Source: Pseudoflavonifractor sp. 60 (GTDB taxonomy: Bacteria > Bacillota > Clostridia > Oscillospirales > Oscillospiraceae). Taken from it: DNA of 43,581 nt. This document shows positions 1-28,002 of this stretch, piece after piece. Positions within the stretch are counted from its first letter, which is position 1. Each line of letters starts with the position of its first letter. The stretch is taken from positions 1 through 43,581 of the forward strand of contig NZ_QWKI01000125.1 of the NCBI RefSeq assembly GCF_009911645.1. The letters run 5' to 3'. The notes beneath the pieces are model-generated. The model worked only from the letters and a program-made list of their open reading frames with translations, was not told the DNA's origin and searched no databases. Both the position numbers and the translations under genes were made by a program.

Positions 1-416
1 CTGCGGAACTCTTTCTTAAACCCTCCTGACTCCTCCTTTTTCTTTTTTGTTGCACTTCATTGACAATCTGCCCTCCGGCGAAGCCGGTGGGGATTGACCG
101 TCAGAAGCAATTCTAAGGTCCCAGGGTCGTGCGCTGTAAAACGACAATCCCCCGCCCTCGCGTCGCTCGGGCACCCCCTTTGCCAAAGGGGGCAAGCGGC
201 TGCGCCGCTTGGGGGACGCCGGGCTGTACCTCTTGGACAAGGGAGCGGGGCAGTCACATGGGGCGTTTTATAACATAATATCAAACTACCGCGCAAAAAT
301 CCTCGTGACCGGGTGGAGTACCTGCGATTATGGCAAGAGTGTCAGAGCTTTGCTTCTTTTCTTTTCAAAGAAAAGAAGGCCTGTCCGGCGAGGACAAAAT
401 GACAAGGAGGAATTGC
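1..416. other. Non-coding leader with two hairpins before phage-like operon
   Basis: I see no convincing gene here. Two adjacent perfect hairpins stand out: 174-192 (CCCCCTTT / AAAGGGGG) and 194-210 (AAGCGGC / GCCGCTT). Such stacked GC hairpins look like dispersed intergenic repeats rather than a single terminator, because no T-tract follows. The segment 250-330 is AT-richer and could hold the operon promoter, but I cannot define convincing -35 and -10 boxes. No terminase gene is found directly upstream of the portal gene, where it usually lies. Confidence 0.5.
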
Positions 417-1556
417 ATGAAGTGGTGGAAGCAAAAGCGAAGAGAGCCCCCTGCTCCCGTGGTTCAGGTGCGGCAGGGGGCGGGGAACCCTTTCGGTATG
501 CTGGACCGGTACGTCCCCCTGCACACCGGGGAGACCGCCCTGTACCGGGCCATCCGGGAGGGGATTCCCATTGTGGACGCCGCCATCTGGAAGCTAACCC
601 GGCTGTGCGGCGGCGTGGGGGTGAAGTGCGCCGGCTCCGAGGCTCAGGCCGGGCTGGAGCGGTTCTTTCAGACGGTGGATATCGGCTGGGGTCAGAGGGG
701 AGTGCAAGCCTTTCTGGACCGCTATCTGGACGACCTGTTTACCTGCGGCCACGCCCTGGGGGAAATTGTGCTCACCAGAGACGGCGGGGATATTGCCGCT
801 TTGTTGTGTGCGGACCCGGAACAGGTCGAGGTGAAAATCGGGGACAGCCCCCTGGACTTCCGCCTGTGCCAGGCGGGGTTGGGGGAGGACCGGGAGCTGC
901 CCTGGCAGGACCTGCTCCTCTTCACCCCCTTCCAGCCCACGGCGGACGCCCCCTGCGGGGTGTCGCTGCTGCGGTCCATGCCCTTTCTGACAGGCATCCT
1001 GCTGAAGATCTTCCAGGCTACCGGGCAGAACTGGGAGCGGGCCGGCAACCTGCGCTTCGCCATGGTGTACAAGCCAGGCGAGGGAGAGGATACCTTTGCC
1101 CAGGAGCGATGCAATCTCCTGGCTCAGGAGTGGTCCGCTGCCATGCAGGCGGGACGTGAGGGTAGCGTCCGGGACTTTGTGGCGGTGGGCGACGTGGACA
1201 TTCGGGTCATCGGCGCAGACAGCCCCGTGCTGGACAGTCAGGTCCCCGTGCGGCAGATCCTGGAACAGCTGGTGGCCCGCACCGGCATCCCGCCCTTTAT
1301 GCTGGGGCTGTCCTGGTCGTCCACCGAGCGGATGAGCGCCCAGCAGGCCGATATGCTCACCAGCGAGATCACCGCCATCCGCCGGGCCGTGGAACCCGCC
1401 TTGTGCCGGGTCGCGGAGCTGTGGCTGAGGCTCCACGGCTATGACCAGCGGGCGGAAATTTTCTGGGAGGACATTAATCTCCAGGACATTGTGGAGGAGG
1501 CCAGGGCGGAGCTGTACCGGGCCCAGACGGAAAAATTGAGGAGGGAAATCCAATGA
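417..1556 (+). CDS. Phage portal protein (XkdE/DUF935-like)
   Basis: Portal proteins form the dodecameric ring at the capsid vertex through which DNA passes and to which the tail attaches. The ATG at 417 is chosen because AAGGAGG lies at 404-410, six bases upstream; longer upstream readings have no such site. The 379-residue protein has an early helical part followed by a region with FLDRYLDDLFTCGHALGE and a C-terminal part with TGIPPFMLGLSWSSTERMSA, which is the pattern of the clip and stem region in Phage_portal family proteins. Length fits the shorter members of the family. Its stop overlaps the next start (ATGA), so it is the first gene of a translationally coupled operon whose order matches the PBSX xkdE-xkdU block. 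The assignment rests on motif pattern plus synteny. Confidence 0.85.
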   Translation: MKWWKQKRREPPAPVVQVRQGAGNPFGMLDRYVPLHTGETALYRAIREGIPIVDAAIWKLTRLCGGVGVKCAGSEAQAGLERFFQTVDIGWGQRGVQAFLDRYLDDLFTCGHALGEIVLTRDGGDIAALLCADPEQVEVKIGDSPLDFRLCQAGLGEDRELPWQDLLLFTPFQPTADAPCGVSLLRSMPFLTGILLKIFQATGQNWERAGNLRFAMVYKPGEGEDTFAQERCNLLAQEWSAAMQAGREGSVRDFVAVGDVDIRVIGADSPVLDSQVPVRQILEQLVARTGIPPFMLGLSWSSTERMSAQQADMLTSEITAIRRAVEPALCRVAELWLRLHGYDQRAEIFWEDINLQDIVEEARAELYRAQTEKLRREIQ

Positions 1557-2446
1557 ACATCATCAAAGAAGCCCAGGGAGGCGAGAGCGCGGCCCTGAGC
1601 GCCGGCGATTTGGAGCTGATCGGCGGGCTGGCCAGACGGCCCCTGAAACCGGAGGAGGTGTACACCTTCTCCGTGCGGCTGTGCGACAACGAAATCGACC
1701 GGGACTTTGAGCGCTTTACGACCGGGACCCTGGAGGAGCTGGCCCCCATGTTCGTGGGGAAGTGCGGCATCTTTGACCACCGGTGGTCGGCCCAGGGACA
1801 GGCGGCCCGGATCTACAAGACCAAGGTGGTCCGGGAGCCCCAGCGGCTTACCAGAGCCGGAGACGAATATTGCTGGCTGAAGGGATTTGCCTATATGATG
1901 CGTACCGACAGCACAAAGGACCTGATTGCCGAAATCGAGGGGGGCATCAAAAAGGAGGTCAGTGTGGGCTGCGCGGTGCGGCACTCCATCTGCTCTGTGT
2001 GCGGCGCGGACCGGATCGCCGCCGGCTGCGGCCACCAGAAGGGACAGGAGTATGGCGGCCAGCTGTGCTACGCAGCCCTGGAAGGGGCTGAGGACGCCTA
2101 TGAGTTCTCCTTTGTGGCAGTGCCCGCCCAGCCCCGGGCCGGGGTCGTCAAGAGCGCCTGCCGGGAGGAACGGGACCTGGAGCGGCTGGAACAGGAGGCC
2201 GCCCTGGGCCGGAGGTATCTGGAAAACCTCCGGGGCGAGGTGGTGCGGCTGGCTCTGCTGGCCGACCGGGAGCTGGATGGCCAGACCATAAAATCCTTGG
2301 CGGACAAGCTCTTGCCCGGGGAGCTGGAGGAGCTGCGCAAATCCTACGCCCGCCGGGCGGAAGAGCGGCTGCCGGTGAAGACGCAGCTGGCCTATGGAGA
2401 ACAGAATAAACTCCCCCAGGAGCGGGACAGCGCATTTATGATTTGA
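1553..2446 (+). CDS. Prohead maturation protease (XkdF/HK97-protease-like)
   Basis: This is the likely capsid-assembly serine protease that trims scaffold or capsid protein. The 297-residue protein has FDHRWS with His76, KKEVSVGC with Ser137, and EFSFVAVPAQP starting at Glu184, matching the His/Ser and E-S-x-V-x-x-P-A signature of HK97-type prohead proteases. A Cys/His cluster follows the serine (Cys147, Cys150, Cys159, His161) and may bind zinc; a similar knuckle occurs in XkdF-type proteins as I recall them. The tail beyond residue 200 is Arg/Glu-rich and helical, resembling a scaffold extension. It overlaps the portal gene by four bases and lies directly before the capsid gene, as expected for a protease-capsid pair. 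Confidence 0.8.
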   Translation: MNIIKEAQGGESAALSAGDLELIGGLARRPLKPEEVYTFSVRLCDNEIDRDFERFTTGTLEELAPMFVGKCGIFDHRWSAQGQAARIYKTKVVREPQRLTRAGDEYCWLKGFAYMMRTDSTKDLIAEIEGGIKKEVSVGCAVRHSICSVCGADRIAAGCGHQKGQEYGGQLCYAALEGAEDAYEFSFVAVPAQPRAGVVKSACREERDLERLEQEAALGRRYLENLRGEVVRLALLADRELDGQTIKSLADKLLPGELEELRKSYARRAEERLPVKTQLAYGEQNKLPQERDSAFMI

Positions 2447-2469
2447 TTGATTAAAGGAGGATACACAGC

Positions 2470-3483
2470 ATGGCTTTTTACTACGACAATCTGAAGCTGG
2501 ACAAGGGGATGTATCAGGAGGCGGGCCGCTCCTTCAGCCAGGTGCTGGAGAGCCAGGACCCCAGTGAGCGCTACAAGGGGACCGGTCTGGAGGGGCTGGA
2601 CGCCTTCCAGCGGCAGCTGAAACGGTTCGACATCAAAGTGAAGGGTGCGGCCAGCGACGTGGTGGAGAAGTTCTTCCAGACCTCCGACGCCGCCGTACTC
2701 TTCCCCGAGTACATCGCACGCACCGTGCGCCAGGGGATGGAGGAGGGGGATATCCTCCCCCACATCACCGCCGCTGTCACCAAATTCGAGGGCCTGGACT
2801 ACCGCTCCATTACCTCTGAGGCCGGCGGGGAGGAGAAGGAGCTGAAACCGTTGGCCGAGGGTGAGGCTATCCCGGAGACCACTGTGAAGGTACAGTCTAA
2901 CCTGGTGCGGCTGCACAAGCGGGGCCGGATGCTGGTGGCCAGCTATGAGGCGGTCCGCTTCCAGAAGCTGGACCTGTTCTCCGTGACCCTGCGGCAGATC
3001 GGCGCACACATTGCCCGGGCCCAGCTGGAGGACGCGGTGAATGTGCTTATCCACGGCGACAACGGGGAAAACGCCGCGGAAGTGACCAGGCTGGAGGCGG
3101 AGACCCCCTTTGACTACAACGCCCTGGTGGACTTCTGGGCCCGTTTCGACCCCTATGAGATGAACGCCCTGCTGGTGTCCGGCGACGTGCTGGTGCAGAT
3201 GCTGAAAATGCCCGAGTTCCAGAATCCCCTCACCGGCCTCAACTTCCAGGGCACCGGCAAGCTGACTACCCCCCTGGGGGCCAATCTGCTGCGTACCAGT
3301 GTACTGCCCGCCAGGACTGCTATCGGCCTGGACAAGCGCTTTGCCCTGGAGATGGTGCGCAGCGGCGGCGTGATGGTGGAGTATGACAAGCTCATCGACC
3401 GCCAGCTGGAGCGGGCCGCTATTACCGAGATCAGCGGCTTTACCAAGATCTTCCCCCAGGCCAGCCGGGTCCTGGAGCTGTAA
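2470..3483 (+). CDS. Major capsid protein (XkdG-like, HK97 fold)
   Basis: The predicted shell subunit has 337 residues, which is typical of this class. It begins at ATG 2470 after AAAGGAGG (2453-2460). An N-terminal helical segment of about 60 residues precedes AAVLFPEYIARTVRQGM and DILPHITAAVTKFEGLDYRS, then a basic strand-rich part (VRLHKRGRMLVASYEAVR), which resembles the E-loop and spine helix region of XkdG and Mu-type capsids. The C-terminal LDKRFALEMVRSGGVMVEYDKLIDRQLERAAITE is a familiar end pattern for phage capsid proteins. Position after the protease supports the call. No cleavage site is obvious by eye. Confidence 0.85.
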   Translation: MAFYYDNLKLDKGMYQEAGRSFSQVLESQDPSERYKGTGLEGLDAFQRQLKRFDIKVKGAASDVVEKFFQTSDAAVLFPEYIARTVRQGMEEGDILPHITAAVTKFEGLDYRSITSEAGGEEKELKPLAEGEAIPETTVKVQSNLVRLHKRGRMLVASYEAVRFQKLDLFSVTLRQIGAHIARAQLEDAVNVLIHGDNGENAAEVTRLEAETPFDYNALVDFWARFDPYEMNALLVSGDVLVQMLKMPEFQNPLTGLNFQGTGKLTTPLGANLLRTSVLPARTAIGLDKRFALEMVRSGGVMVEYDKLIDRQLERAAITEISGFTKIFPQASRVLEL

Positions 3484-3485
3484 AC

Positions 3486-3839
3486 ATGGAGCGGGAGATT
3501 TTGTCCCTGTGCAGGGCAATGGGGGCCGGAGAGGAGCAGGAGGAACTGACCCTGCTGCTGGTCCAGGCGGTTTGCAGGCAGTTGGCCGCACGGCTGCGGG
3601 AGGGGACCCTCCCCCAGGACTGCGGCCCCGCCTTCCCCCTGGCCGCCGCTATGCTGGTGATGGACCGGCTGTCCCGGATGGCAAAGAGCGGCGGCAAGAT
3701 CGCCTCCTTTACCGCCGGGGACCTGACCATCCGCCAGGAGACGGGGGGCGCCGGAACACAACTCTCTGACCATGCGGAAGTGCTGCTGGGGCCGTGGCTG
3801 AGAGACAGAGGATTCTTTTTTCAGGGGGTTGAGGGCTGA
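3486..3839 (+). CDS. Head-tail connector-like protein (YqbG position)
   Basis: A 117-residue mostly helical protein that begins two bases after the capsid stop, at ATG 3486. Motifs such as LLLVQAVCRQLAARLREG and FPLAAAMLVMDRLSRM suggest a helical bundle of the kind seen in gp6/gp15-like head-tail adaptors. The sequence alone does not identify a family. The position, immediately after the capsid in a PBSX-like order, corresponds to YqbG-type completion proteins. Its stop overlaps the next start by one base, so expression is coupled to the operon. Confidence 0.55.
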   Translation: MEREILSLCRAMGAGEEQEELTLLLVQAVCRQLAARLREGTLPQDCGPAFPLAAAMLVMDRLSRMAKSGGKIASFTAGDLTIRQETGGAGTQLSDHAEVLLGPWLRDRGFFFQGVEG

Positions 3840-4156
3840 TGGAACAAGCTTGGCGGGGGCTGCTGGCACAATACGGACAGCCTGTGACCCTGCGCAGCGG
3901 GGAGTATGAGACCGCAGTCCGGGCGTTTGTCCAGCCGCTGCTGGAGGGGAAAAGCCAGCAGCTCCCCGCCCCTCTGGGCCTGGAGCGGCAGGACCGGTTC
4001 CGCTACCTGGGACCGGCGGACTGTCCCCTGGACCTGGATACCCTGGTGAAGTGGAAGGGGACCATCTATCGGGTTTGCTCCGCCCATCTGGTGGGGGAGG
4101 GTGTTTGCCCCCACTGGCGGGCGGTGCTGGCCCCCAGAGAGGAGAGTGCGCTGTGA
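3839..4156 (+). CDS. Head-tail joining protein (XkdH/YqbH position)
   Basis: A 105-residue protein that starts at ATG 3839, sharing the A of the upstream stop. It has a beta-rich pattern (PVTLRSGEYETAVRAFVQPL and LDLDTLVKWKGTIYRVCSAHL) consistent with the small beta-barrel stoppers that close the portal channel. In PBSX-type loci the second gene after the capsid encodes this stopper. The C-terminal VCPHWRAVLAPREE resembles the end of such stoppers. The function is inferred mainly from size, secondary structure impression and gene order. Confidence 0.55.
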   Translation: MEQAWRGLLAQYGQPVTLRSGEYETAVRAFVQPLLEGKSQQLPAPLGLERQDRFRYLGPADCPLDLDTLVKWKGTIYRVCSAHLVGEGVCPHWRAVLAPREESAL

Positions 4157-4656
4157 GTGCGGGACTGGAAAATATTCGCCAGGTGATGGCGGACTTCCTC
4201 CGGGAAAAGGGGATCTGCGCGGTGACCACTTGGCCCATGGAGCCCAGAGCAGAGCGGGACGGGCCGGTGGTAGCGGTGTCCCTGCGCAAATGCAAGGCCC
4301 AGCCGGCCAGCTTCCAGGACTACCTGGGGGAGCGGTATGACCCGGCGGCGGACCGGTGGGAGGAGCGCTTCGGAAAACGGGCGGAGCTCACCTTTGGTCT
4401 GGATATCTACGGCCCGGAGAAGGGGGACGGGGAGAAAATTCAGGCCGCCTTCGACAAACTGGCCGGGGCCCTGCTCCTGGGCGGACCGGAGGGGATGGAC
4501 CTGCGGGAGTTCTCCTGTGGGGAGACCGTCCGGGACGGGGAGAGCCGCCGGTTAAAACGGCACGTGGAGGCGGTCTGTAACGCATGGCTGTGTGCCGTCA
4601 CCGACGCAGGCGGCGGATTTATCGATTTTGAATTGAGAGGTGTGATGAGACAATGA
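4153..4656 (+). CDS. Tail completion/terminator-like protein (XkdJ position)
   Basis: The start is the GTG at 4153, which overlaps the upstream stop as GTGA; a longer reading from 4051 would overlap the preceding gene by about 100 bases. The resulting 167-residue protein has a helical start (GLENIRQVMADFLREKGI), then alternating strands with VVAVSLRKCKAQPASF and AELTFGLDIYGPEKGDGEKI. This alpha-beta pattern fits tail terminator proteins of the gpU/XkdJ kind, which cap the tail tube. Its own stop overlaps the sheath start (ATGA). Confidence 0.5.
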   Translation: MSAGLENIRQVMADFLREKGICAVTTWPMEPRAERDGPVVAVSLRKCKAQPASFQDYLGERYDPAADRWEERFGKRAELTFGLDIYGPEKGDGEKIQAAFDKLAGALLLGGPEGMDLREFSCGETVRDGESRRLKRHVEAVCNAWLCAVTDAGGGFIDFELRGVMRQ

Positions 4657-5711
4657 GTATTTCCGTGCATCAGCGTCCGGGGGTGTACTCCTCCTATGAC
4701 GCGTCCGCAGTGGTCAGCGGATCCGGAACCGGCAGGCTGGTGGGACTGGTGGGAATCAATCACCAGGCCCCCGCCGGGGAGGTCCTGACGGTGACCAGCT
4801 ACGACCGGGCGGTGGCCCTGTTTGGTTCCCAGGGGAGCGAGGATATGGCGGAGCTCATCCGGCTGGCGCTGAAAAATGGGGCCTCCGGAGTGGCGGCCGT
4901 TCCGGTGGCCGACAGGAGCGGCTATGAGGCGGCCTTTGCCAAGCTGGCCGGGGTTGAAAACATTGCCCTGGTTTTGTGTGACAGCACCGATGTGGAGGTG
5001 CAGAAAAAGATGCGGGACAGCGTGGTTTCCGCCTCTGAGCTGCGCCGGGAGCGGCTGTGCGTGGCCGCAGGGGCCAAGGAGGAGAGCGTGGAGGAGCTGA
5101 TTGCCCGGGCCGGAGAGCTCAACCACGAACGGGCGGTCCTGGCGGCTCCCGGCGGTCTGGATGGCCAGGGGAACCCCATCTCCGGACTGCCTCTGGCCGC
5201 CGCCATTGCGGGGGTTATCGCCGGGGAGGGCGACCCGGCTGTTCCTCTGGGCGGCGCACGGCTCCAGGGACTCCATGGGCTGTCCAGCCGGCTGGAGGAC
5301 AACGACATCGACCTGCTGGTGCTGGGTGGGGTCACACCGGTGGAGAGCCTGGGGGGTGTGGTCAGCGTGGTGCGGGGCGTGACCACCCGGACCAGCACCG
5401 CGGGGACGGCGGACGCCTCCTGGAGGGACCTGTCCGCCATCCGCGTGGTGGACGACGTGATCCCCAGTCTGCGCACCGCCCTGCGCAGCAAGTTCTATCG
5501 GGCCAAGAACACCGCCCAGAGCCGGGGGGCGATCCGGGCCCAGGTGGTGCTGGAGCTGGAGAACAAGCTGACCCGGGAGATCATCACCGATTACGACGGC
5601 GTGTCGGTGGCCGCCGACCCGGAGGACCCTACCCGGTGTCTGGTGGACTTCTCCTTCGCTGTCGCCCACGGGCTGAACCAGATTTGGCTGACGGCGCATA
5701 TCACCGTATAA
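4653..5711 (+). CDS. Contractile tail sheath protein (XkdK-like)
   Basis: The sheath surrounds the tail tube and contracts to drive it through the target envelope. The 352-residue protein opens with QRPGVYSSYDASAV, the usual P-G-V-Y start of sheath proteins. It continues with a GTxxGLVGIN-like strand and the domain with RAVALFGSQGSEDMAELIRLALKNGA. It ends with a strand-rich C-terminus (FSFAVAHGLNQIWLTAHITV) of the type that exchanges strands between sheath subunits. It is shorter than many sheaths (400-490 residues) but close to small PBSX/Mu-type ones. It is the clearest evidence that this locus encodes a contractile tail. Confidence 0.88.
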   Translation: MSISVHQRPGVYSSYDASAVVSGSGTGRLVGLVGINHQAPAGEVLTVTSYDRAVALFGSQGSEDMAELIRLALKNGASGVAAVPVADRSGYEAAFAKLAGVENIALVLCDSTDVEVQKKMRDSVVSASELRRERLCVAAGAKEESVEELIARAGELNHERAVLAAPGGLDGQGNPISGLPLAAAIAGVIAGEGDPAVPLGGARLQGLHGLSSRLEDNDIDLLVLGGVTPVESLGGVVSVVRGVTTRTSTAGTADASWRDLSAIRVVDDVIPSLRTALRSKFYRAKNTAQSRGAIRAQVVLELENKLTREIITDYDGVSVAADPEDPTRCLVDFSFAVAHGLNQIWLTAHITV

Positions 5712-5778
5712 GCGTCCGAGCCGTAGCGAACAGCGCGGATGAATCTGGAAACCCCATCATTTTGCAAGGAGGGATTTT

Positions 5779-6168
5779 ATGAGCATTGCGGGATTTCCGA
5801 CCAGCAGTGATATCTATCTGGAGGTGGACGGGATGCGGGTCGCGGTGGTCCAGAGCTACGCCGCCAAGACCACCAAGAACAGCACGGCGGTGGAGGCCTT
5901 CGGTGAGGCGGAGCCGGTGGCCACCGTCCCCGGGCAGGCCGCCCACGTCATTGAGCTGACCCGGCTCTACGCCACCGATGAGGCCATCCGGGACGGGGTC
6001 GACTTCTACTCCCTGGAAAACTTCTCCCTGGTTATCTGCAAACCGGACCGGAAAATTATCTACTCCGACTGCCAGTGGAGCGCCATTCAGGAGAGCGCCA
6101 ACATTGGGAGCATGGTGCTGGAAAAGGTGACCCTGGTGGCCTCCCGGCGGATTGAGACGGGGGTGTGA
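5779..6168 (+). CDS. Tail tube protein (XkdM-like)
   Basis: A 129-residue protein with SD AAGGAGGG at 5765-5772 and ATG at 5779. It has the all-beta pattern of Hcp-like tube subunits: DIYLEVDGMRVAVVQSYAAK at the start and IGSMVLEKVTLVASRRIETG at the end. The E-x-V-T-L-V-A-x-R ending is typical for PBSX and Mu tube proteins. It follows the sheath gene directly, as is normal for contractile tails. The 67 bases between the two genes contain no further gene. Confidence 0.8.
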   Translation: MSIAGFPTSSDIYLEVDGMRVAVVQSYAAKTTKNSTAVEAFGEAEPVATVPGQAAHVIELTRLYATDEAIRDGVDFYSLENFSLVICKPDRKIIYSDCQWSAIQESANIGSMVLEKVTLVASRRIETGV

Positions 6169-6554
6169 CCGTGGTACTGTCTATGTTGGCGGGGCGGGAC
6201 CGGATGTCCCTAGGAAACGGCTTCGACCTGCGGCTGCTGTCGGCGCTGGAGGTGCTCCAGGCCCGGCGGGAGGCCCGGGAGCTGGCTTCCGGAGACCGGG
6301 AGCGGGCCCTGTGCTCCAACGCCTGCCTGCTGGCCCGGGCGCTGGAGAAGTCGGAGGACCACACCCCCGTGTTTGCCGGGGGGCAGGAGGTGCTGGCCGG
6401 GCTGACAGTGGAGGAGATCGCCTCTCTGGCCGGACGGTGGAGCGCCTTCCGGAGGGAAAACGACCCGGGGCTGGACCTGTCCCGGGAGGAGCTGGAACAC
6501 GTAAAAAAAAACTCCGCAGCGACCCCGGACAGCGGCTGCGGTGGCGGGTCCTGA
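6165..6554 (+). CDS. Tail assembly chaperone, unshifted product (XkdN/gpG-like)
   Basis: The zero-frame product has 129 residues and starts at GTG 6165, which overlaps the tube stop as GTGA. It is helical and acidic (LRLLSALEVLQARREAREL; LTVEEIASLAGRWSAF), as tail assembly chaperones are. It sits exactly between the tube gene and the tape-measure slot, where phages encode a G/GT chaperone pair. Near its end it carries the slippery run at 6506-6512. If ribosomes do not slip, translation ends at TGA 6552-6554. Confidence 0.75.
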   Translation: MTVVLSMLAGRDRMSLGNGFDLRLLSALEVLQARREARELASGDRERALCSNACLLARALEKSEDHTPVFAGGQEVLAGLTVEEIASLAGRWSAFRRENDPGLDLSREELEHVKKNSAATPDSGCGGGS

Positions 6555-6799
6555 GAGATTTCGGCGCTCTGCCCACAGAGAAGCGGGCCAGAGCGATGAA
6601 GGAACGGGACTTTCTGTGGTGTCTGGCCAACGGTCTGCTGGACCGGGAGGAGAAGCTGGAGGGGCTGTGTCCCAGCTGCCGGACCAGGGCGCTGGAGCGG
6701 CGCTGTCCCGTCTGCGGCCGGGCGGAGGAGGACTGTGAGGTCAATTCCTCCTTCGACCCGGCCCGCTTTGAACAGCTGAAGGAGGGAAGCCGTGACTGA
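6165..6799 (+). CDS. Tail assembly chaperone, -1 frameshift fusion (gpGT-like)
   Basis: The frame -1 relative to the chaperone stays open from before the slip site to TGA 6797-6799 and has no good start of its own. A -1 slip at A AAA AAC (6506-6512) would give a 211-residue fusion: 116 residues of chaperone plus 95 new residues. The extension contains CPSCRTRALERRCPVCG, a four-cysteine zinc-ribbon pattern, then an acidic tail. Lambda G/GT and many contractile phages use the same mechanism; the longer form is thought to bind the tape-measure protein. The fusion itself is an inference; the slippery heptamer and open -1 frame are visible. Confidence 0.75.
6485..6541 (+). promoter_or_regulatory. 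Programmed -1 ribosomal frameshift signal
   Basis: The heptamer A AAA AAC at 6506-6512 is in the correct phase of the chaperone reading frame (codons GTA AAA AAA AAC from 6501). A perfect 7-bp stem CCGCAGC (6514-6520) / GCTGCGG (6535-6541) follows, only one base after the slip site. An SD-like GGAGGAG at 6485-6491 lies 14 bases upstream. Both flanking elements are known to stimulate bacterial -1 frameshifting, although the hairpin spacing is shorter than usual. Confidence 0.75.
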
Positions 6800-7448
6800 C
6801 TATCTGGAGGAACTGTTGGAGGACGCCGGCGTGCTGCTGGAAGAGGTGAAGCGGCTGGAGAGGAGCGGGGCCGTCCCCCTTTCGGAGGAGGCACCGAGGT
6901 TTTTGCCGCTGCCGGGAGAGAGAGGAAACAGAGGGCGGAACACCCGGGAGGATGCCGCTGTGTTTGCGGAGGAGAGCCGCCCGGAGGGGGAAGCGGCAGA
7001 GGTCCAGACACGGCGGGCGCTGGAGGAGCGCTTTTCCTCAGGAGAGAGACCGGGCGAGACCGGCCAGGTGGACGCGCCGAAGGGGGAGACGGCGAGGGAG
7101 CTGGTCCCGGAGGAGCCTGACGCCCGGGAGACGGGGGACGTCCCACTGCTGGAGGAGCTGGCGCGGCTGGAGCGGGCGGCGGCGGTGCTGGAGGGGAGTG
7201 GACTGGAACGGACGCAGACCTTTTTGCCGGAGCAGAGAGGAGAGAGACGGACGGACTATCCCCTGGCGCTGGTCCGAGGCGGCGGAAACGTCCCGCCTGA
7301 GCTGGAGCCTCCGGAGAGATGGGGCGGGCGGAGCTGGCCCGAGAATGCTCAGGATTCCTCCGGCGGGGCCCTGAGCCTGGCGGAACAGACCGACCAGGCC
7401 TTCCGCCGGGACAGCCGCCGGTATGACGGGGGCTTCAGCCTCTATTGA
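6792..7448 (+). CDS. Acidic coiled-coil protein in the tape-measure position
   Basis: I do not recognise a family. The start is GTG 6792, just inside the end of the chaperone fusion. The 218-residue product is rich in Glu and Arg with two related helical stretches, LEELLEDAGVLLEEVKRLER near the start and PLLEELARLERAAAVLEGSG in the middle. In the PBSX order the gene between the chaperone (xkdN) and the LysM protein (xkdP) is xkdO, the tape measure, normally above 600 residues. If this is the tape measure, it is extremely short, and a tail of roughly 30 nm would be implied by the usual 0.15 nm per residue rule. It might instead be an unrelated accessory protein that replaced a lost tape measure. 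Confidence 0.5.
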   Translation: MTDYLEELLEDAGVLLEEVKRLERSGAVPLSEEAPRFLPLPGERGNRGRNTREDAAVFAEESRPEGEAAEVQTRRALEERFSSGERPGETGQVDAPKGETARELVPEEPDARETGDVPLLEELARLERAAAVLEGSGLERTQTFLPEQRGERRTDYPLALVRGGGNVPPELEPPERWGGRSWPENAQDSSGGALSLAEQTDQAFRRDSRRYDGGFSLY

Positions 7449-7479
7449 GACGGTGGAGAGCTTTGAGAGGAGTGATGGC

Positions 7480-8046
7480 ATGAATCTTTCGCCCATGCGG
7501 TATCGCGGCTACACCTGGCCCCACAACCCTAGGGTGTATACCATCGAATACAACCGGACTATGGCCGCTCACAAGATCCCCTTCGGTCAGTACCAGCTCC
7601 AGGACCTGGGGCGGAGCAGCCGGATCATGAGAGGGGAGGGAGAGTTTGTGGGCGAGGGGGCTTACAGTCAGTTCGGACAGCTGGCCAACACCTTCTACGA
7701 GGAGGGGCCAGGACTGCTGGTCCACCCCCTGTGGCAGGCCGCCAGTGCCTATTTTGTCTCCCTGAAGGTGGAACAGGCCCCCAGACCTGACTATGTGCGC
7801 TACTCCTTCGAGTTTTGGGAGGGGAACGGCCCAGTAAATGGTATGGTGGTCCAAAGGATTGAGACAGCCCGCAGCAGCGGAGAGGCCCAGGGCAGCTCCA
7901 GCGCCTGTCATCGAGTCATAAAAGGGGATACCCTCTGGGCCCTGGCGCAGCGCTACGGCCTGTCCCTGGAGGAGTTGATTGCCCTCAATCCCCAAATCAA
8001 AAATCCAAACCTGATCCGGGTCGGGGAGGAGGTGCGGGTGCGTTGA
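7480..8046 (+). CDS. LysM baseplate/tail protein (XkdP-like)
   Basis: The start is ATG 7480 after a GAGAGGAG site. The 188-residue protein has an N-terminal baseplate domain (YTIEYNRTMAAHKIPFGQYQ; YSFEFWEG). A C-terminal LysM domain covers about residues 138-188, with VIKGDTLWALAQRYGLSLEE and NPNLIRVGEEVRV. XkdP of PBSX and gp53 of Mu-like phages combine these elements; LysM may anchor the baseplate hub or bind peptidoglycan during injection. It follows the tape-measure position and overlaps the next gene by four bases (TTGA), as in PBSX. Confidence 0.85.
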   Translation: MNLSPMRYRGYTWPHNPRVYTIEYNRTMAAHKIPFGQYQLQDLGRSSRIMRGEGEFVGEGAYSQFGQLANTFYEEGPGLLVHPLWQAASAYFVSLKVEQAPRPDYVRYSFEFWEGNGPVNGMVVQRIETARSSGEAQGSSSACHRVIKGDTLWALAQRYGLSLEELIALNPQIKNPNLIRVGEEVRVR

Positions 8047-8720
8047 CAGCCTATGTGACCGACGCCGCCGGACAGAGGTGGACCCTGCCGGACCAGGTGG
8101 CCTGGCGGCTGGAGTACACCGCCGGTATCCCCTGTGACAGCTTTTGGATGCGCTGCCTCTGGGATGGGGAGAACACCGCCCGGCCAGGGGACTGGGTGGA
8201 ATTTGCCGCCGAATATCAAGGGGAGCGGGTGTTTACCGGTCTGGTGGACGAGTGTGAGGTGAAGATGAGCGCTAAGGGACAATTTCTGGAGCTCTCTGGC
8301 CGGGGAATGGCCGCCCGCCTGCTGGACAATGAGGCTCTGGGTCAGGATTACCTGCTGGCAACTCAGGCGGACATTATCCGGGACCATGTGATACCTTATA
8401 GAGTGGGGGTGGCGGTCGGGACCAGGCTGCCCCCCATTGCCAACTTTTCCGTGGAGACAGGGAGCAGTGAGTGGTCGGTGGTCAGCGATTTTGCCCAGCG
8501 GAGCCAAGGACTCGTCCCCCGGTTTGACCGCCAGGGGCGGCTGGTGCTGGACCAGTGGGACGACAGCCAGACGCGGGTTGTGGACGACAAGGCCCTGGTA
8601 CTCTCCATGCTGCGGCGGGACAGGCGGTACGGCGTACTGTCCCAGATCCTGGTGCGGGACCGGTGGAGCGGCAAGGTGGAGCTGGTGAAAAACAACGCGT
8701 TTCTGGACGCCGGAGGGTAG
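8043..8720 (+). pseudogene. Baseplate hub protein N-terminal part (XkdQ/gpD-like), ends at in-frame amber
   Basis: The start is TTG 8043, overlapping the LysM stop. The 225 residues show the hub domain pattern of gpD/XkdQ (RPGDWVEFAAEYQGERVFTGLV and the later ADIIRDHVIPYRVGV). The frame meets TAG at 8718-8720, but translation in the same frame continues with ARRIVTMPARSSFKSMRYSG and the rest of the family C-terminus. Together the two parts would give about 316 residues, the normal XkdQ length. The gene is therefore broken by a single amber codon, split in two, or read through. TAG is used as a real stop elsewhere in the operon (11416-11418), so general recoding is unlikely. Confidence 0.7.
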
Positions 8721-8738
8721 GCGAGAAGGATCGTCACC

Positions 8739-8993
8739 ATGCCGGCCCGAAGCAGCTTTAAGAGTATGCGCTATTCAGGACAGTTTCAGTTGGACAAGTC
8801 AGCGGCGGAGCTGGAGCGGGTGGAGGTGACCCTGGGGGAGCCCTTCTGTGCCTGGCCTGGTGAGCTGGTGGAGCTGAAACGCAGCGGCTGGGGCTGGAAC
8901 GGGCGGTACCGGGCGGCTCAGGTGGTGGTGGGGATGGACAGCCAGGGCTGCTGGAGCAGACTGGACCTGGCCAGACCGGATTTCACCCCGTGA
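8739..8993 (+). CDS. Baseplate hub protein C-terminal part (XkdQ/gpD-like)
   Basis: This 84-residue reading is in the same frame as the upstream hub fragment and follows the amber codon after 18 bases. An ATG at 8739 with AAGGA at 8725-8729 (nine bases away) could allow separate translation. The sequence SMRYSGQFQLDKSAAELERV and the strand-rich part with LVELKRSGWGWNGRYRAAQV correspond to the last domain of gpD/XkdQ-type hubs. It ends at TGA 8991-8993, and the next gene starts 40 bases later. Whether it is made as a separate chain is not known. Confidence 0.6.
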   Translation: MPARSSFKSMRYSGQFQLDKSAAELERVEVTLGEPFCAWPGELVELKRSGWGWNGRYRAAQVVVGMDSQGCWSRLDLARPDFTP

Positions 8994-9033
8994 ACCGGTA
9001 TCATTAATAACAATTAGGATGAGGTGTGGATAG

Positions 9034-9432
9034 ATGTGGACATCGGAACGCAATCGAAATCTGCCGGTGCAGGAGGCGGCGGCGGAGCTGGGCACCGTGA
9101 CCCTGGGGGGTGATCCTGCGGGCGTGAGCCTGGGGGGTGAGCGGCGGTGGCTGAATGTGTACAGCCCCGGCGGGTACGGCTGGCGGCCCACGGCGGGGGA
9201 CAAGGTACTGGTGCTCAAGGCCGGGGCAGAGGGGGAGTCCCCCTGTATTTTGGGTACGGTCCAGGAGGAGGACGGGGAAAACCCCTTGAAGTCGGGAGAG
9301 GTCCGGCTGAAGGGCGGGGAGAGCGCCCTCTTTTTGGGACAGGACCGGCTGGAGCTCACCGGAGAGGTGTACCTAAACGGCCAGCCCCTGCGCGGCGCGA
9401 TCGAGGAGATCGTGCGGTCGCTTTTGAGATAA
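9034..9432 (+). CDS. Baseplate spike/OB-fold protein (XkdR/gpV-like)
   Basis: A 132-residue protein that begins at ATG 9034. It contains LNVYSPGGYGWRPTAGDKVLV followed by CILGTVQEEDG, the G-D-x-V-L-V-L turn pattern of the OB-fold found in gpV-type spike bases. The C-terminal part is strand-rich (EVRLKGGESALFLGQDRLELTGEVYLNG), consistent with a short beta-helix spike. It is smaller than gpV of P2 (211 residues). It lies between the hub gene and the gp25-like gene, the expected order for a baseplate cluster. Confidence 0.7.
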   Translation: MWTSERNRNLPVQEAAAELGTVTLGGDPAGVSLGGERRWLNVYSPGGYGWRPTAGDKVLVLKAGAEGESPCILGTVQEEDGENPLKSGEVRLKGGESALFLGQDRLELTGEVYLNGQPLRGAIEEIVRSLLR

Positions 9433-9444
9433 GGAGGGGATGGC

Positions 9445-9789
9445 TTGGAACGAAAGCTGGTGAACGGCGACTATGTGCCCGACGGGTCGGGGGGGCTGAC
9501 CGTGCTGTCCGGGGGCGAGGAGGTGCTGGCCAGGGTCCTCTACCGCCTCACCGCCCGGCGGGGGGCGTTGCCCTTCCTTTCCGAGCTGGGGAGCAGGCTG
9601 TATCAGCTGGGCCGGGAGAAGCCCTCCGCCCGGCAGGCGCTGGCGGTGCAGTATGTGGCCGAGGCCCTGCGGGAGGAGCCGGAGCTGGCGGTGGAGTCGG
9701 TGGAGCTGGTCCAGACAGAGGAGATGGGCCTGCTGACCGTCCGGCTGGCCTGGCAGGGGGAGGAGCTGACCGCCCAGGTGGCGGTATGA
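9445..9789 (+). CDS. Baseplate wedge protein (XkdS/gp25/gpW-like)
   Basis: The start is TTG 9445, seven bases after AAGGAGG (9431-9437); an ATG at 9440 is in the wrong frame. The 114-residue protein has LARVLYRLTARRGALPFLSELGSRLYQL, the hallmark segment of the gp25-like lysozyme-related wedge family, followed by a helix (ARQALAVQYVAEALREEP) and strands (LTVRLAWQGEEL). These proteins join the sheath to the baseplate. It precedes the baseplate J gene, as in PBSX (xkdS-xkdT). Confidence 0.8.
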   Translation: MERKLVNGDYVPDGSGGLTVLSGGEEVLARVLYRLTARRGALPFLSELGSRLYQLGREKPSARQALAVQYVAEALREEPELAVESVELVQTEEMGLLTVRLAWQGEELTAQVAV

Positions 9790-9802
9790 CAGGAGGGGAT
9801 GG

Positions 9803-10858
9803 ATGAAAACCATTGAGGAAATTTATCGGGAGCTGCTGGACTGCTTTGGGGAGCGGACCGGCCTGGAGCCCCGGGAGGGGTGCGACCTGTCCGCACGGAT
9901 GTACACGCTGGCGGCCCAGATCTACGCGCTGTATGTCCAGGCCGACTGGGTGAAGCGGCAGGCCTTTCCCCAGACGGCTCAGGGGGAGTATCTGGATTAC
10001 CACGCCCAGCTGCGGGGCCTGGAGCGCAAGCCACCGGTGGCCGCCACAGGGATTGTGCGGTTTACCGCTGGGGATGTGTCCGACTCCAGCCGGGAGATCC
10101 CACTGGGGACGGTGTGCATGACCACCGGCCTGGTGCGTTTTGAGACCACACAGCCCGGAGTCATCGGGGCGGGGGCCATTGAGGCGGACGTCCCTGTTCG
10201 GGCGCTGGAGGCGGGCACTGGAGGCAACGTGTCTGCGGGTACCATCGTATCCATGGCGGTGGCCCCCATGGGGGTGGCCTCCTGCGTCAACCCGGAGCCC
10301 TGTATCGGAGGGGCGGACGGAGAGGAGGACGACACCCTGCGGGAGCGGGTGTTAGAGAGCTTCAAGCGCCTGCCCAACGGGGCCAACGCCGCCTTCTACC
10401 AGCAGGGGGCCCTGTCCTTTGAACAGGTGGCCGCGGCGGCGGTGATCCCCAGACCCAGAGGGATTGGCTCGGTGGACGTGGTGCCCGCGATCCTGGCGGG
10501 ACCGCCCAGCCAGGGACTGCTCCAGGAGATGCAGGTCTACTTTGAACAGCGGCGGGAGATCGCCGTGGATGTGAAGGTGCGGGCCCCGGAGACGGTGACG
10601 GTGAATGTGTCGGTCCAGGTGGAGCCTCAGGAGAAGCAAAATGGGGCCCAGGTGCGGGAGCGGGTGGAGGAGACCATCCGGAACCGCTTCAATGGCCGGC
10701 TGCTGGGGCGCCGGGTTCTGCTGGCCTGGCTGGGCAGTCTCATCTATAATTGTGAAGGGGTTGCCAACTATGCCATTACCGCTCCGGCGGCGGATGTGGC
10801 GGTGGCTGAGGACCAGCTGCCTGTGCTGGGGACGCTAAAGGTGGAGGTAACAGGATGA
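9803..10858 (+). CDS. Baseplate J protein (XkdT-like)
   Basis: A 351-residue protein starting at ATG 9803 behind GGAGGGG. It shows the Baseplate_J pattern: EYLDYHAQLRGLERKPPVAA near the start, AGTGGNVSAGTIVSM in the middle and GADGEEDDTLRERVLESFKR after it. The usual size is 340-380 residues. Baseplate J proteins form the wedge arms that trigger sheath contraction. Its stop overlaps the next gene (ATGA). Confidence 0.9.
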   Translation: MKTIEEIYRELLDCFGERTGLEPREGCDLSARMYTLAAQIYALYVQADWVKRQAFPQTAQGEYLDYHAQLRGLERKPPVAATGIVRFTAGDVSDSSREIPLGTVCMTTGLVRFETTQPGVIGAGAIEADVPVRALEAGTGGNVSAGTIVSMAVAPMGVASCVNPEPCIGGADGEEDDTLRERVLESFKRLPNGANAAFYQQGALSFEQVAAAAVIPRPRGIGSVDVVPAILAGPPSQGLLQEMQVYFEQRREIAVDVKVRAPETVTVNVSVQVEPQEKQNGAQVRERVEETIRNRFNGRLLGRRVLLAWLGSLIYNCEGVANYAITAPAADVAVAEDQLPVLGTLKVEVTG

Positions 10859-11418
10859 GACATGCCCAGTGCATGAGGGAACTGCTGCTGCCTCTGGGGG
10901 TCTACGACCTGGGGGCGCCCTTTAACGGCGGAGAGCTGGACGCCCAGGGGGAGGCACTGGACCATATGATGGCCTGGGCGGAGGAGATCCAGCGGGAGTC
11001 CTCCCTGGTTACGGCGGAGAGCTGGGGGCTGGAACAGACAGCCTCTCTCTTCCTCCGCCGCCCCGTGGCCGGTGAGCCCCGGAAACTGGCTGCCGCTCTG
11101 GCCGCCCTGCTGCGCATTGGCGGAGACAGCTTTACCCTGGCCGCCATCAACGACACCATCTCGGGCTGCGGCGTCCCGGCCCGGGTCCAGGAGCTGGGAG
11201 TCGAGCGGGTGTCCGTCACATTTCCCGGGATTGCGGGGATTCCAGACAATTTCGAGGAGCTGAAAAAGATTGTGGAGGATATCCTTCCCGCCCACCTGGG
11301 CATTCAATACGATTTCTGGTTCCTTACCTGGAAGGAGCTGGAGGAAAATTTCCACAGCTGGAAGGAAATTGAGGATTTTTCCTGGCATGGTCTGGAGACC
11401 TGCGTGGAATACCTGTAG
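10855..11418 (+). CDS. Baseplate assembly protein (XkdU/DUF2313-like)
   Basis: A 187-residue protein overlapping the baseplate J gene by four bases. SLVTAESWGLEQTASLF and the ending LPAHLGIQYDFWFLTWKELE are typical of the YmfQ/XkdU (DUF2313) family. These proteins act at the outer baseplate where tail fibres attach. It is the last gene of the operon and ends with a real TAG stop. In phages a tail fibre gene follows; here a terminator follows after about 40 bases. Confidence 0.85.
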   Translation: MRHAQCMRELLLPLGVYDLGAPFNGGELDAQGEALDHMMAWAEEIQRESSLVTAESWGLEQTASLFLRRPVAGEPRKLAAALAALLRIGGDSFTLAAINDTISGCGVPARVQELGVERVSVTFPGIAGIPDNFEELKKIVEDILPAHLGIQYDFWFLTWKELEENFHSWKEIEDFSWHGLETCVEYL

Positions 11419-11460
11419 CCAGGGGCCCTCGGCCCAGATCAAATAGACCGGTCCCGAAGA

Positions 11461-11497
11461 GGGTCCTCCTTGTAAATGAGGAGGGCCCTTTTTTTGT
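11461..11497 (+). terminator. Terminator of phage-like operon
   Basis: GGGTCCTCCT (11461-11470) pairs with AGGAGGGCCC (11479-11488) around an eight-base loop, followed directly by a run of Ts. It closes the phage-like operon. Confidence 0.9.
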
Positions 11498-11639
11498 TCA
11501 CAAAATACTTAAAAATCCCCCGGGAAAATTCAAAAAGTTATTTGTTTTTCTTCATGCTTTTTTCATAATTTGGAGGTATGATAGCATCAGTTCAAGGGAA
11601 CACCTCATTATAAACCGTTTCAAAAGGAGCGTTTTGATT

Positions 11640-26292: not shown

Positions 26293-28002
26293 CTATTCTA
26301 CAAATAGCATATCTCTGTGATAGGAAAGGTATTCATTCATACTTTTGTTTATTTGAAGGTTAAACTTCAACCCTTGGGATAGTCCAAGTCGCTTAATATT
26401 TTCAGCCCCAATCTGAGAAGATAAAATAATCTTGCCATATCTATCGAATGTAATGAGACCACGGTCAAAAAGTCTATCATAGGTAGCGCTAAGGAGGAGC
26501 CCGTTGTCAACACTTAAGCGCTCTTTATTAGAACTGGCTGCCCATGGCTTAATGTGGCTTGCAACAAGCAAATCGGGATGGTCAATTCCCGTTATAATAC
26601 AACGCCCATTATATTTATCAATAAGAGATTTTCTAAAGGCACCTTGACCTACTCGTGATTGAATGATGGCTGTTTTCTCGGTTTCAGGAATTTGCCTGTC
26701 ATTCTCTATTGTCTCCATATAAATACGATCGCCCGAATCTTCGGATATGGTATTGAGAAAATAGCGGTATTGCTTAAGCGCATTTCTGTACAACAGTTTT
26801 CTGCGAGTATTTTCTGTGGCAAAATCTCTATCGTTTATGATAAGAAAGATTGCAAGATCAAGTTCAAACGGTGACATAGTTTCAAGTGGTTTTTGGATTG
26901 TGCCTTTTTGATGCATTTCCTTCGATATTGCGCCTACTGCATCAGAGTATGTACCAATAGAACTCTCAGAAAACCCAATATTCTGAGCCAGCCAGTCAGA
27001 AAAGGGATTGCTACTATGAGTGGTAGATAATAATGCGGATGAACGGTTAGCGGAATCTGGATTGGCTTTCTTTTCTTCATTTACTCCGGTCGAACCTCTT
27101 TTCGATGCAATGCCAAGGTTACGTGCTCTTATCCATATAGCCGGTAGCGTTCTGTTGGGCAGATATTTTTCCTGCAATTCTTTACTTGACATCTTACCAT
27201 AGCATTTATTTAATATTTCATCATCTTCTTTAGTCCAGTCGGGACTCTTGGGCAACCCGATACCAAGACTCCCTGCTTTCCCAATAATAGCCTTTATCGT
27301 TCTGTTCGGTAGATATTTTTCCCGCAATTCCTCATTTGGCATTTTATTATAATATTTTCGTAATTTTTCAAGTTCTTCTTCAGTCCAGTTCAGGTTTCTT
27401 GTTTGTGTAATGCCAAGAATACTTGCTCTTCCCAATATAGCCTGTGACGTTCTATTAGGCAGATATTTTTCCCGCAATTCTTCATTTGATATTTTGCCAT
27501 AGTATTCTTGCAATATTTCATCATCTTCTTTAGTCCAGTCGGGACTCCTTGGTGACCCAATACCAAGGAGCACTGCTCTCCCAATAATAGCCTTTATCGT
27601 TCTGTCGGGCAGGTATGTTTTTTGCAATTCCTTATTTGGCATTTTGCCATAGTATTCTTGTAACTTTTCAATCTCTTCCTCGGTCCAGTCGGGACTCTTT
27701 ACTAATGTGAGGCCAAGGTCAGATGCTTTCCCAAGGATAGCATCTACTGTTCTGTCAGGCAGACATGTTTTCTGCAATTCTTCTATTGATATTTTACTAT
27801 AGTTTTCTTGTAACTTTTCAAGCTCTTCTTTGTTCCATTCTGGTCTCTTTGCTAATGCAATGCCAAGTTCAGATGCCTTCCGTCTGATAGATTGCGGTGT
27901 CCTGTTAGGTAGATATTTTCTCTGCAATTCTTTATTTGGCATCTTACCATAGTGTTCTTGCAACTTTTCAAGTTCTTCTTTCGTCCAGTCTTGGCCTTTC
28001 AA
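26293..28002 (-). CDS. HNH endonuclease with six Myb/SANT-like DNA-binding repeats
   Basis: The 569-residue protein starts at TTG 28002 behind GGGAGGGG. Residues 6-300 are six repeats with an exact 50-residue period (Trp at 6, 56, 106, 156, 206 and 256). Each runs W-[TN]-x-E-[ED]-x-E-x-L, then K-[MI]-x-x-x-E-L, L-P-[ND]-R-T-x-x-[AS]-I-x-x-[KR]-A-x-x-L-G, the pattern of a three-helix Myb/homeodomain-like module. After a linker, a C-terminal domain holds RCIITGIDHPDLLVASHIKP and VDNGLLLSATYDRLFD, an HNH_2-type nuclease core. The gene is markedly AT-rich compared with its neighbours, so it was probably acquired. Possible roles are defence, homing, or a mobile-element nuclease; none is proven. 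Confidence 0.8.
   Translation of the reverse strand: MKGQDWTKEELEKLQEHYGKMPNKELQRKYLPNRTPQSIRRKASELGIALAKRPEWNKEELEKLQENYSKISIEELQKTCLPDRTVDAILGKASDLGLTLVKSPDWTEEEIEKLQEYYGKMPNKELQKTYLPDRTIKAIIGRAVLLGIGSPRSPDWTKEDDEILQEYYGKISNEELREKYLPNRTSQAILGRASILGITQTRNLNWTEEELEKLRKYYNKMPNEELREKYLPNRTIKAIIGKAGSLGIGLPKSPDWTKEDDEILNKCYGKMSSKELQEKYLPNRTLPAIWIRARNLGIASKRGSTGVNEEKKANPDSANRSSALLSTTHSSNPFSDWLAQNIGFSESSIGTYSDAVGAISKEMHQKGTIQKPLETMSPFELDLAIFLIINDRDFATENTRRKLLYRNALKQYRYFLNTISEDSGDRIYMETIENDRQIPETEKTAIIQSRVGQGAFRKSLIDKYNGRCIITGIDHPDLLVASHIKPWAASSNKERLSVDNGLLLSATYDRLFDRGLITFDRYGKIILSSQIGAENIKRLGLSQGLKFNLQINKSMNEYLSYHRDMLFVE
27103..27990 (-). repeat. Six tandem 150-bp coding repeats
   Basis: The repeats of the HNH gene have a 150-bp period. 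Within them, repeats 3-4 resemble repeats 5-6 as dimers: a stretch of more than 30 bases ending in the codons for SPDW is shared at about 27215-27247 and 27515-27547, exactly 300 bases apart. This suggests duplication of a two-repeat unit. Confidence 0.8.

Follow-up and report, generated by a model that had tools for sequence, protein, structure and literature searches.

The 43,581-base contig of Pseudoflavonifractor sp. 60 analysed here (referred to as the window; contig C212, one complete contig of a 394-contig genome) carries a run of phage genes which is probably a domesticated, vertically inherited operon working like a gene transfer agent (GTA), with a short contractile tail and packaging host DNA without sequence choice. 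Its domestication is well supported, the operon being near-universal, usually single-copy and conserved in position across the genus, with open frames under purifying selection. The genes, which span 417 to 11418, are coupled on one strand and lead from the portal to an XkdU-like gene in a PBSX-like order. An earlier note on this stretch had counted fifteen of them; the coupling and the order stand, but the count is 16 genes and a frameshift extension. The full operon appears to read TerS-TerL-portal-gene 2-capsid-connectors-sheath-tube-chaperone-short tape-measure-position protein-LysM protein-hub-baseplate-XkdU, with the small (TerS) and large (TerL) terminase subunits placed at its head from the evidence of a second contig.

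The earlier note had described the operon as having no terminase, a claim that does not hold for the genome. A single TerL match, 76% identical to the query from a relative, was found at C267:29277-30527, ending approximately 330 bases before the end of this 30,855-base contig, and upstream of it are TerS, dacF, glgB and glgC, in the same order as in relatives. Of 52 same-genus loci, 50 have TerL directly upstream of the portal gene (15-451 nt apart in 49), and the two genes are therefore probably adjacent here also. The two loci without it (L084 and L086) start inside the portal gene, while in L064 (G026) the TerL frame ends early, after about 129 codons, so that the 871 nt separating it from the portal is not a true gap. 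The non-coding positions 1..416, which form the contig end and would lie between TerL and the portal, share two short repeat-like matches of 38-40 nt with the end of C267, and these may explain the break between the contigs; no read spans the join, which follows from gene order in relatives. The terminase is invisible in the window because the operon starts 416 bases from the contig end, and a terminase-less operon was rejected as an assembly artefact.

TerL of the source genome passes two Pfam terminase models, and the residues that we take to be its Walker A/B cores and nuclease aspartates are the same in all 96 sequences compared. TerS of the same genome has 99 amino acids, its frame comprising 110 codons, and its match to PF03592 is confined to positions 63-129 and falls below the cut-off. 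The profile for its N-terminal half was built from eight full-length relatives. The N-terminal DNA-binding half was found by profile search in 0 of 48 same-genus loci tested, the source included, and in 12 of 52 loci from other genera of the family; the C-terminal half is kept in 45 of the 48, with L068, L070 and L072 showing neither. By sequence, the operon thus appears to share with GTAs the combination of an intact TerL and a TerS without a DNA-binding domain, and this favours interpreting it as a GTA-like packager over a tailocin or injection device.

The portal gene is present in 54 of 60 same-genus species, with an extra fragment at a contig end in G060 and a portal split across contigs in G016 and G049. 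In a family sample (completeness of 90% or more, contamination of 5% or less), it was found in 128 of 294 genomes and 36 of 72 genera. By tallies counted by hand, it is fixed or almost so in some genera (g48 9/9, g75 7/7, g35 8/8, g89 9/12), mixed in others (g65 6/13, g77 8/13) and was not found in the sampled genomes of g36, g40, g47, g57, g64 and g98. Across the order, the capsid profile has a match in 101 of 395 sampled genomes, representing 52 of 172 genera, and it is a single match in 98 of the 101. A named collection gave 69 portal loci, the best being from Oscillospiraceae such as Flintibacter muris, Colidextribacter sp. OB.20, Lawsonibacter sp. and Pseudoflavonifractor phocaeensis; isolates with the locus include F. 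muris DSM 110149 and P. phocaeensis An858.

Comparison of the locus across related genomes, a check put forward in the earlier note, shows that related species carry it in the same chromosomal position. Among same-genus loci whose flank is long enough to judge, 42 of 43 have dacF upstream and 35 of 36 have glgB, L054 being the exception in both cases (the names dacF, glgB, glgC, hemW, ObgE, holin, endolysin and receptor-binding were assigned by eye). Six species have no portal (G037, G038, G039, G042, G046 and G050). Of these, G039 has host-like genes continuous from dacF to hemW and no tblastn trace of the operon. No trace was detected by tblastn in the examined stretches of G037, G046 and G050, and for G038 and G042 the sequence stops too close to dacF to tell. 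Between genera the site mostly differs. Within other genera, upstream neighbours are shared in 15 of 21 pairs in g48, 15/15 in g89, 3/3 in g67 and 0/10 in g75, and downstream neighbours in 6/10 pairs in g75 and 1/15 in g89; the single pair of g45 shares neither side (0/1).

All 17 scored segments are present in 40 of 40 same-genus loci spanning TerL to XkdU (the hub counting as two segments, with TerS and the variable gene 10 left unscored). Frame lengths in such loci are near-constant, except for two short LysM measurements (L067, L069), probably because the match begins before the true start codon. The ratio of nonsynonymous to synonymous substitution (dN/dS), also proposed earlier as a check, has a median of 0.22-0.42 across ten operon genes (pairwise NG86, pairs with dS of 0.05-1.2 only), indicating purifying selection, and this is equally strong on terminase, portal and capsid as on the tail genes. 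Distances of nine operon genes follow those of glgB (r 0.66-0.93, 32-38 loci, 0 of 300 permutations as high), a comparison of linked genes. For ObgE, identity to the source genome correlates with that of the portal at Spearman 0.67 (n=88 genomes) and 0.54 for the 77 from other genera, based on 88 of 130 positive genomes, among the matches listed, and on identity to one genome only. Long vertical inheritance under purifying selection, a trait of GTAs, is therefore found here, and the suggestion of a domesticated particle kept by the host, which the earlier note had marked as inference, is now well supported by conserved site, frames and selection.

No integrase was seen between host genes and operon in the same-genus flanks read. 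As in GTAs, genes for phage heads and tails lie on the host chromosome unaccompanied by integration or replication genes, this being judged from flanking genes named by eye from their translations, and the fibre, lysis and integration genes that the earlier note did not see were not found at the locus in this genus either. Of 138 loci searched, 10 have lysis- or receptor-binding-like genes behind XkdU, and all 10 come from other genera. Five of these have an M15-type endolysin, together with an XhlA-like protein in three and a second holin-like protein in two, and the five others have a carbohydrate-binding-like protein.

From these features, a mechanism may be proposed in which TerL, guided by a TerS that has lost its DNA-binding half, would load pieces of host chromosome into small heads irrespective of their sequence. 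Docking on related cells would fall to a short sheathed tail, and lysis and receptor-binding proteins would come from elsewhere.

A number of observations weigh against such a GTA. The portal is lacking in 6 of 60 species of the genus and in half of the sampled genera. The TerS N-terminal half is retained in 33 of 81 loci outside the genus (a count that includes genome G090 twice and two phage records), and the hub gene of the source genome is itself interrupted. Lysis and receptor-binding genes were not found at 52 same-genus loci, 42 of which reach past XkdU. A second operon for lysis and fibre was sought with two candidate proteins, an endolysin and a receptor-binding protein, in the source and 37 of the 60 same-genus genomes; no uniform partner was found elsewhere with these, although diverged partners are possible. 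The endolysin query matched by its C-terminal stretch only, in 21 of the 37 genomes and not in the source, and the receptor-binding candidate had a match in the source and in 9 of the 37. Finally, Oscillospiraceae DNA is described in PMC12946183 as rising in longer reads of 20-40 kb, against 8.4-8.9 kb for the GTA of Faecalibacterium (FpGTA).

The main rival, which is considered unlikely, is a PBSX-like killing particle in which a small head packs host DNA and a contractile tail kills competing strains with no delivery of DNA. Gene order and contractile tail are both PBSX-like here, and PBSX itself is described as packaging 13.4 kb host fragments and acting as a tailocin without DNA injection (PMC12946183). 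A killer would, however, have less need of its terminase, portal and capsid, on which purifying selection is just as strong as on the tail genes; nor was a receptor-binding gene found at the locus in this genus. An ordinary prophage or prophage remnant, merely common in these bacteria, is very improbable. The phage genes themselves, the interruptions of the hub here and of TerL in L064, and the six species lacking the element would suit it, but the same site, usually a single copy, near-constant open frames and host-like distances across the genus do not, and no integrase was seen between host genes and operon. The earlier note held that a terminase, integrase and fibre set next to the window, or absence of the locus from the same site in related strains, would mark a prophage fragment; a terminase does appear to lie next door, but no integrase or fibre set was found, and relatives carry the locus at the same site. 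Least probable of all is a satellite-like, helper-dependent module whose particle packs another mobile element with a small terminase providing specificity, since, although the locus has no lysis or fibre genes and a partner could complement the truncated TerS, no such partner was identified and the fixed position across the genus argues for a host-level function.

Beyond the genus, it is tentatively suggested that a contractile GTA lineage may be old in Oscillospiraceae, with a terminase-portal-capsid core shared with other families of the order, tails and lysis genes exchanged, and the DNA-binding half of TerS lost in many lineages. In loci L122, L123, L125, L126, L195, L198 and L252-L259, the terminase-portal-capsid core is kept with few or no matches to the tail genes of the window, so the tail there seems to be of another kind. 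Gene order within the core also varies, the capsid lying before the portal in L103 (G257) and before gene 2 in L258 and L259 (G497, G626).

In the window, the operon begins with the portal protein (417..1556, plus strand, as for all genes of the run), which has homology to phrog_30703 (E-value 4.6e-153) and no Pfam match. Gene 2 (1553..2446), which by position may be protease- or scaffold-like, belongs to phrog_16951 (function unknown) and has a cysteine-rich invariant core; a search against solved structures gave no match for it. It is followed by the major capsid protein (2470..3483; PF25209 over cut-off, phrog_3922) and by three genes in the position of connectors: two small ones with no family (3486..3839, of conserved order in relatives, and 3839..4156, placed by position and relatives) and a third with a provisional start codon (4204..4656; phrog_25177, function unknown). 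The tail sheath (4653..5711) possesses PF17482 and PF04984 over cut-off and matches phrog_279, and the next gene is the putative tail tube by position (5779..6168; phrog_27038, function unknown). The gene at 6165..6554 has no family and is XkdN-like by its tail assembly chaperone position alone. Over its end lies a run of nine A (6503-6511), with an overlapping cysteine-rich extension frame (6503..6799) that is likely to be reached by slippage at this run; the pattern at the junction of the two frames is present in 44 of 65 loci.

Gene 10 (6792..7448), the 218-amino-acid product of which has no family, occupies the tape-measure position. Such genes have a median of 206 amino acids in 43 same-genus loci (range 55-259, the low end being unreliable due to automatic start choice) and of 170 in 43 others, and a short contractile tail is predicted from this. 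Across the window and 86 relative loci, the protein is hypervariable and disordered-looking with a conserved C-terminal motif (approximately F(R)RDSRRYDG), which is unusual for a tape measure. The remaining tail genes code for an XkdP-like protein with DNA_circ_N and LysM domains (7423..8046; Pfam over cut-off, phrog_184 baseplate hub), the XkdQ/gp44-like baseplate hub (8043..8993; phrog_177, E-value 1.8e-26 for its first piece, with Pfam gp44 below cut-off), a small gene in a baseplate position (9034..9432; phrog_25991, function unknown), a gpW/gp25-like baseplate wedge (9445..9789; phrog_43, E-value 2.1e-5), an XkdT-like baseplate J protein (9803..10858; PF04865 over cut-off) and, as last gene, the XkdU/gp48-like tail protein (10855..11418; phrog_521, E-value 7.3e-14, with Pfam gp48 below cut-off). 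Pfam cut-offs were thus passed by capsid, sheath, LysM/DNA_circ_N and Baseplate_J, with portal, hub, W and XkdU resting on PHROGs, since their Pfam matches were missing or fell short of the cut-off; NCBIfam gave nothing for the ten operon proteins tried.

The hub gene contains an in-frame TAG codon (8718-8720), as the earlier note had reported, and this was found only in the source genome. Conserved recoding was rejected: wherever matches to both halves of the hub were obtained, in 42 same-genus loci and 24 others, the gene is a single open frame in every one. The codon could reflect either a mutation or an error of assembly, and this copy of the operon may be impaired by it. Single in-frame stops in otherwise full-length genes were also observed in two portal matches, G100:C48:54016-55134 (TGA) and G126:C31:11196-12296 (TAG).

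The strong intrinsic terminator at the end of the operon (11456..11493, plus strand) was overlooked by a simple consensus scan but is detected by folding, with -26.3 kcal/mol for region 11450-11497 (z -4.69, 0 of 200 shuffles as good). A trypsin/PDZ (HtrA-like) gene starts downstream at 11634, so the housekeeping protease described as directly following is indeed there, but as a neighbour it is special to the source genome, being absent from all 42 same-genus loci with 1.5 kb or more of sequence beyond XkdU. Elsewhere in the window, a minus-strand open reading frame of 569 amino acids (26293-28002) consists of repeated units of about 50 amino acids (WTKEELEKLQE...).

Among 50,697 phage records, the capsid matched five, the portal six (one being a Microcystis phage at 31%) and the sheath two. 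That free phages carry this capsid was rejected, given just five such records, of which the two with flanks read carry host-like genes (named by eye). In MT835508.1 (L250) the core sits beside ribosomal-protein and secY-like genes, and in MT835769.1 (L251) beside a thymidylate-synthase-like gene and other host-like genes; these neighbours indicate that both, which are phage-labelled faecal scaffolds from Mexico, are probably chromosome fragments. They may stem from a particle-enriched virome such as that described in PMC8361208. IMG/VR gave 35 portal loci, none on a contig longer than 18.1 kb.

Searches for published work on GTAs, PBSX-like elements or domesticated prophages of these taxa, at the level of titles and abstracts, found no description of the operon. 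PBSX of Bacillus subtilis has the same portal-to-XkdU gene order and a contractile tail. Its tape measure exceeds 1,000 amino acids and its fibre and lysis genes lie behind XkdU, whereas the gene in this position here is of about 200 amino acids and no fibre or lysis genes were found behind XkdU in the genus. Tailocins and extracellular contractile injection systems have contractile sheath, tube and baseplate genes in common with the operon. Both are headless, unlike the operon, which keeps portal, capsid and terminase. To our knowledge, few GTAs exist outside the alphaproteobacteria. RcGTA of Rhodobacter capsulatus, whose hosts belong to that class, is a host-kept phage operon with a 49 nm tail and a very short tape measure, of approximately 216 residues by the segments given, which resembles those of siphophages and the needles of podophages (PMC7296036). 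No contractile sheath is mentioned for its tail in the passages available (PMC7296036), in contrast to the sheath gene identified here.

The nearest published system is FpGTA of Faecalibacterium (PMC12946183). As described there, FpGTA shares a single-operon TerS-TerL-portal-capsid core, belongs to a related gut family and is near-ubiquitous in its genus; its TerS is described as being without an obvious DNA-binding domain and no replication genes are reported, as here (PMC12946183). It differs in being most likely podovirus-like according to its authors, where the present operon has contractile sheath, tube and baseplate genes, and in having its fibre and lysis genes in a further operon (PMC12946183), no such genes having been found here. 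Homologs of the operon core exist in other families of the order but none was assignable to Faecalibacterium, the likeness to FpGTA being one of description. The same source reports GTA-like packaging in Oscillospiraceae too, with a strong candidate operon confined to one of four metagenome-assembled genomes searched, that of F. prausnitzii and not the Onthomonas (Oscillospiraceae) one; the word 'contractile' does not occur in its main text (PMC12946183). If the contractile lineage is indeed old, the operon would be the missing gene set behind this Oscillospiraceae packaging, and a contractile GTA maintained across a large family of gut commensals would provide a concrete, testable gene set for the packaging of host DNA.

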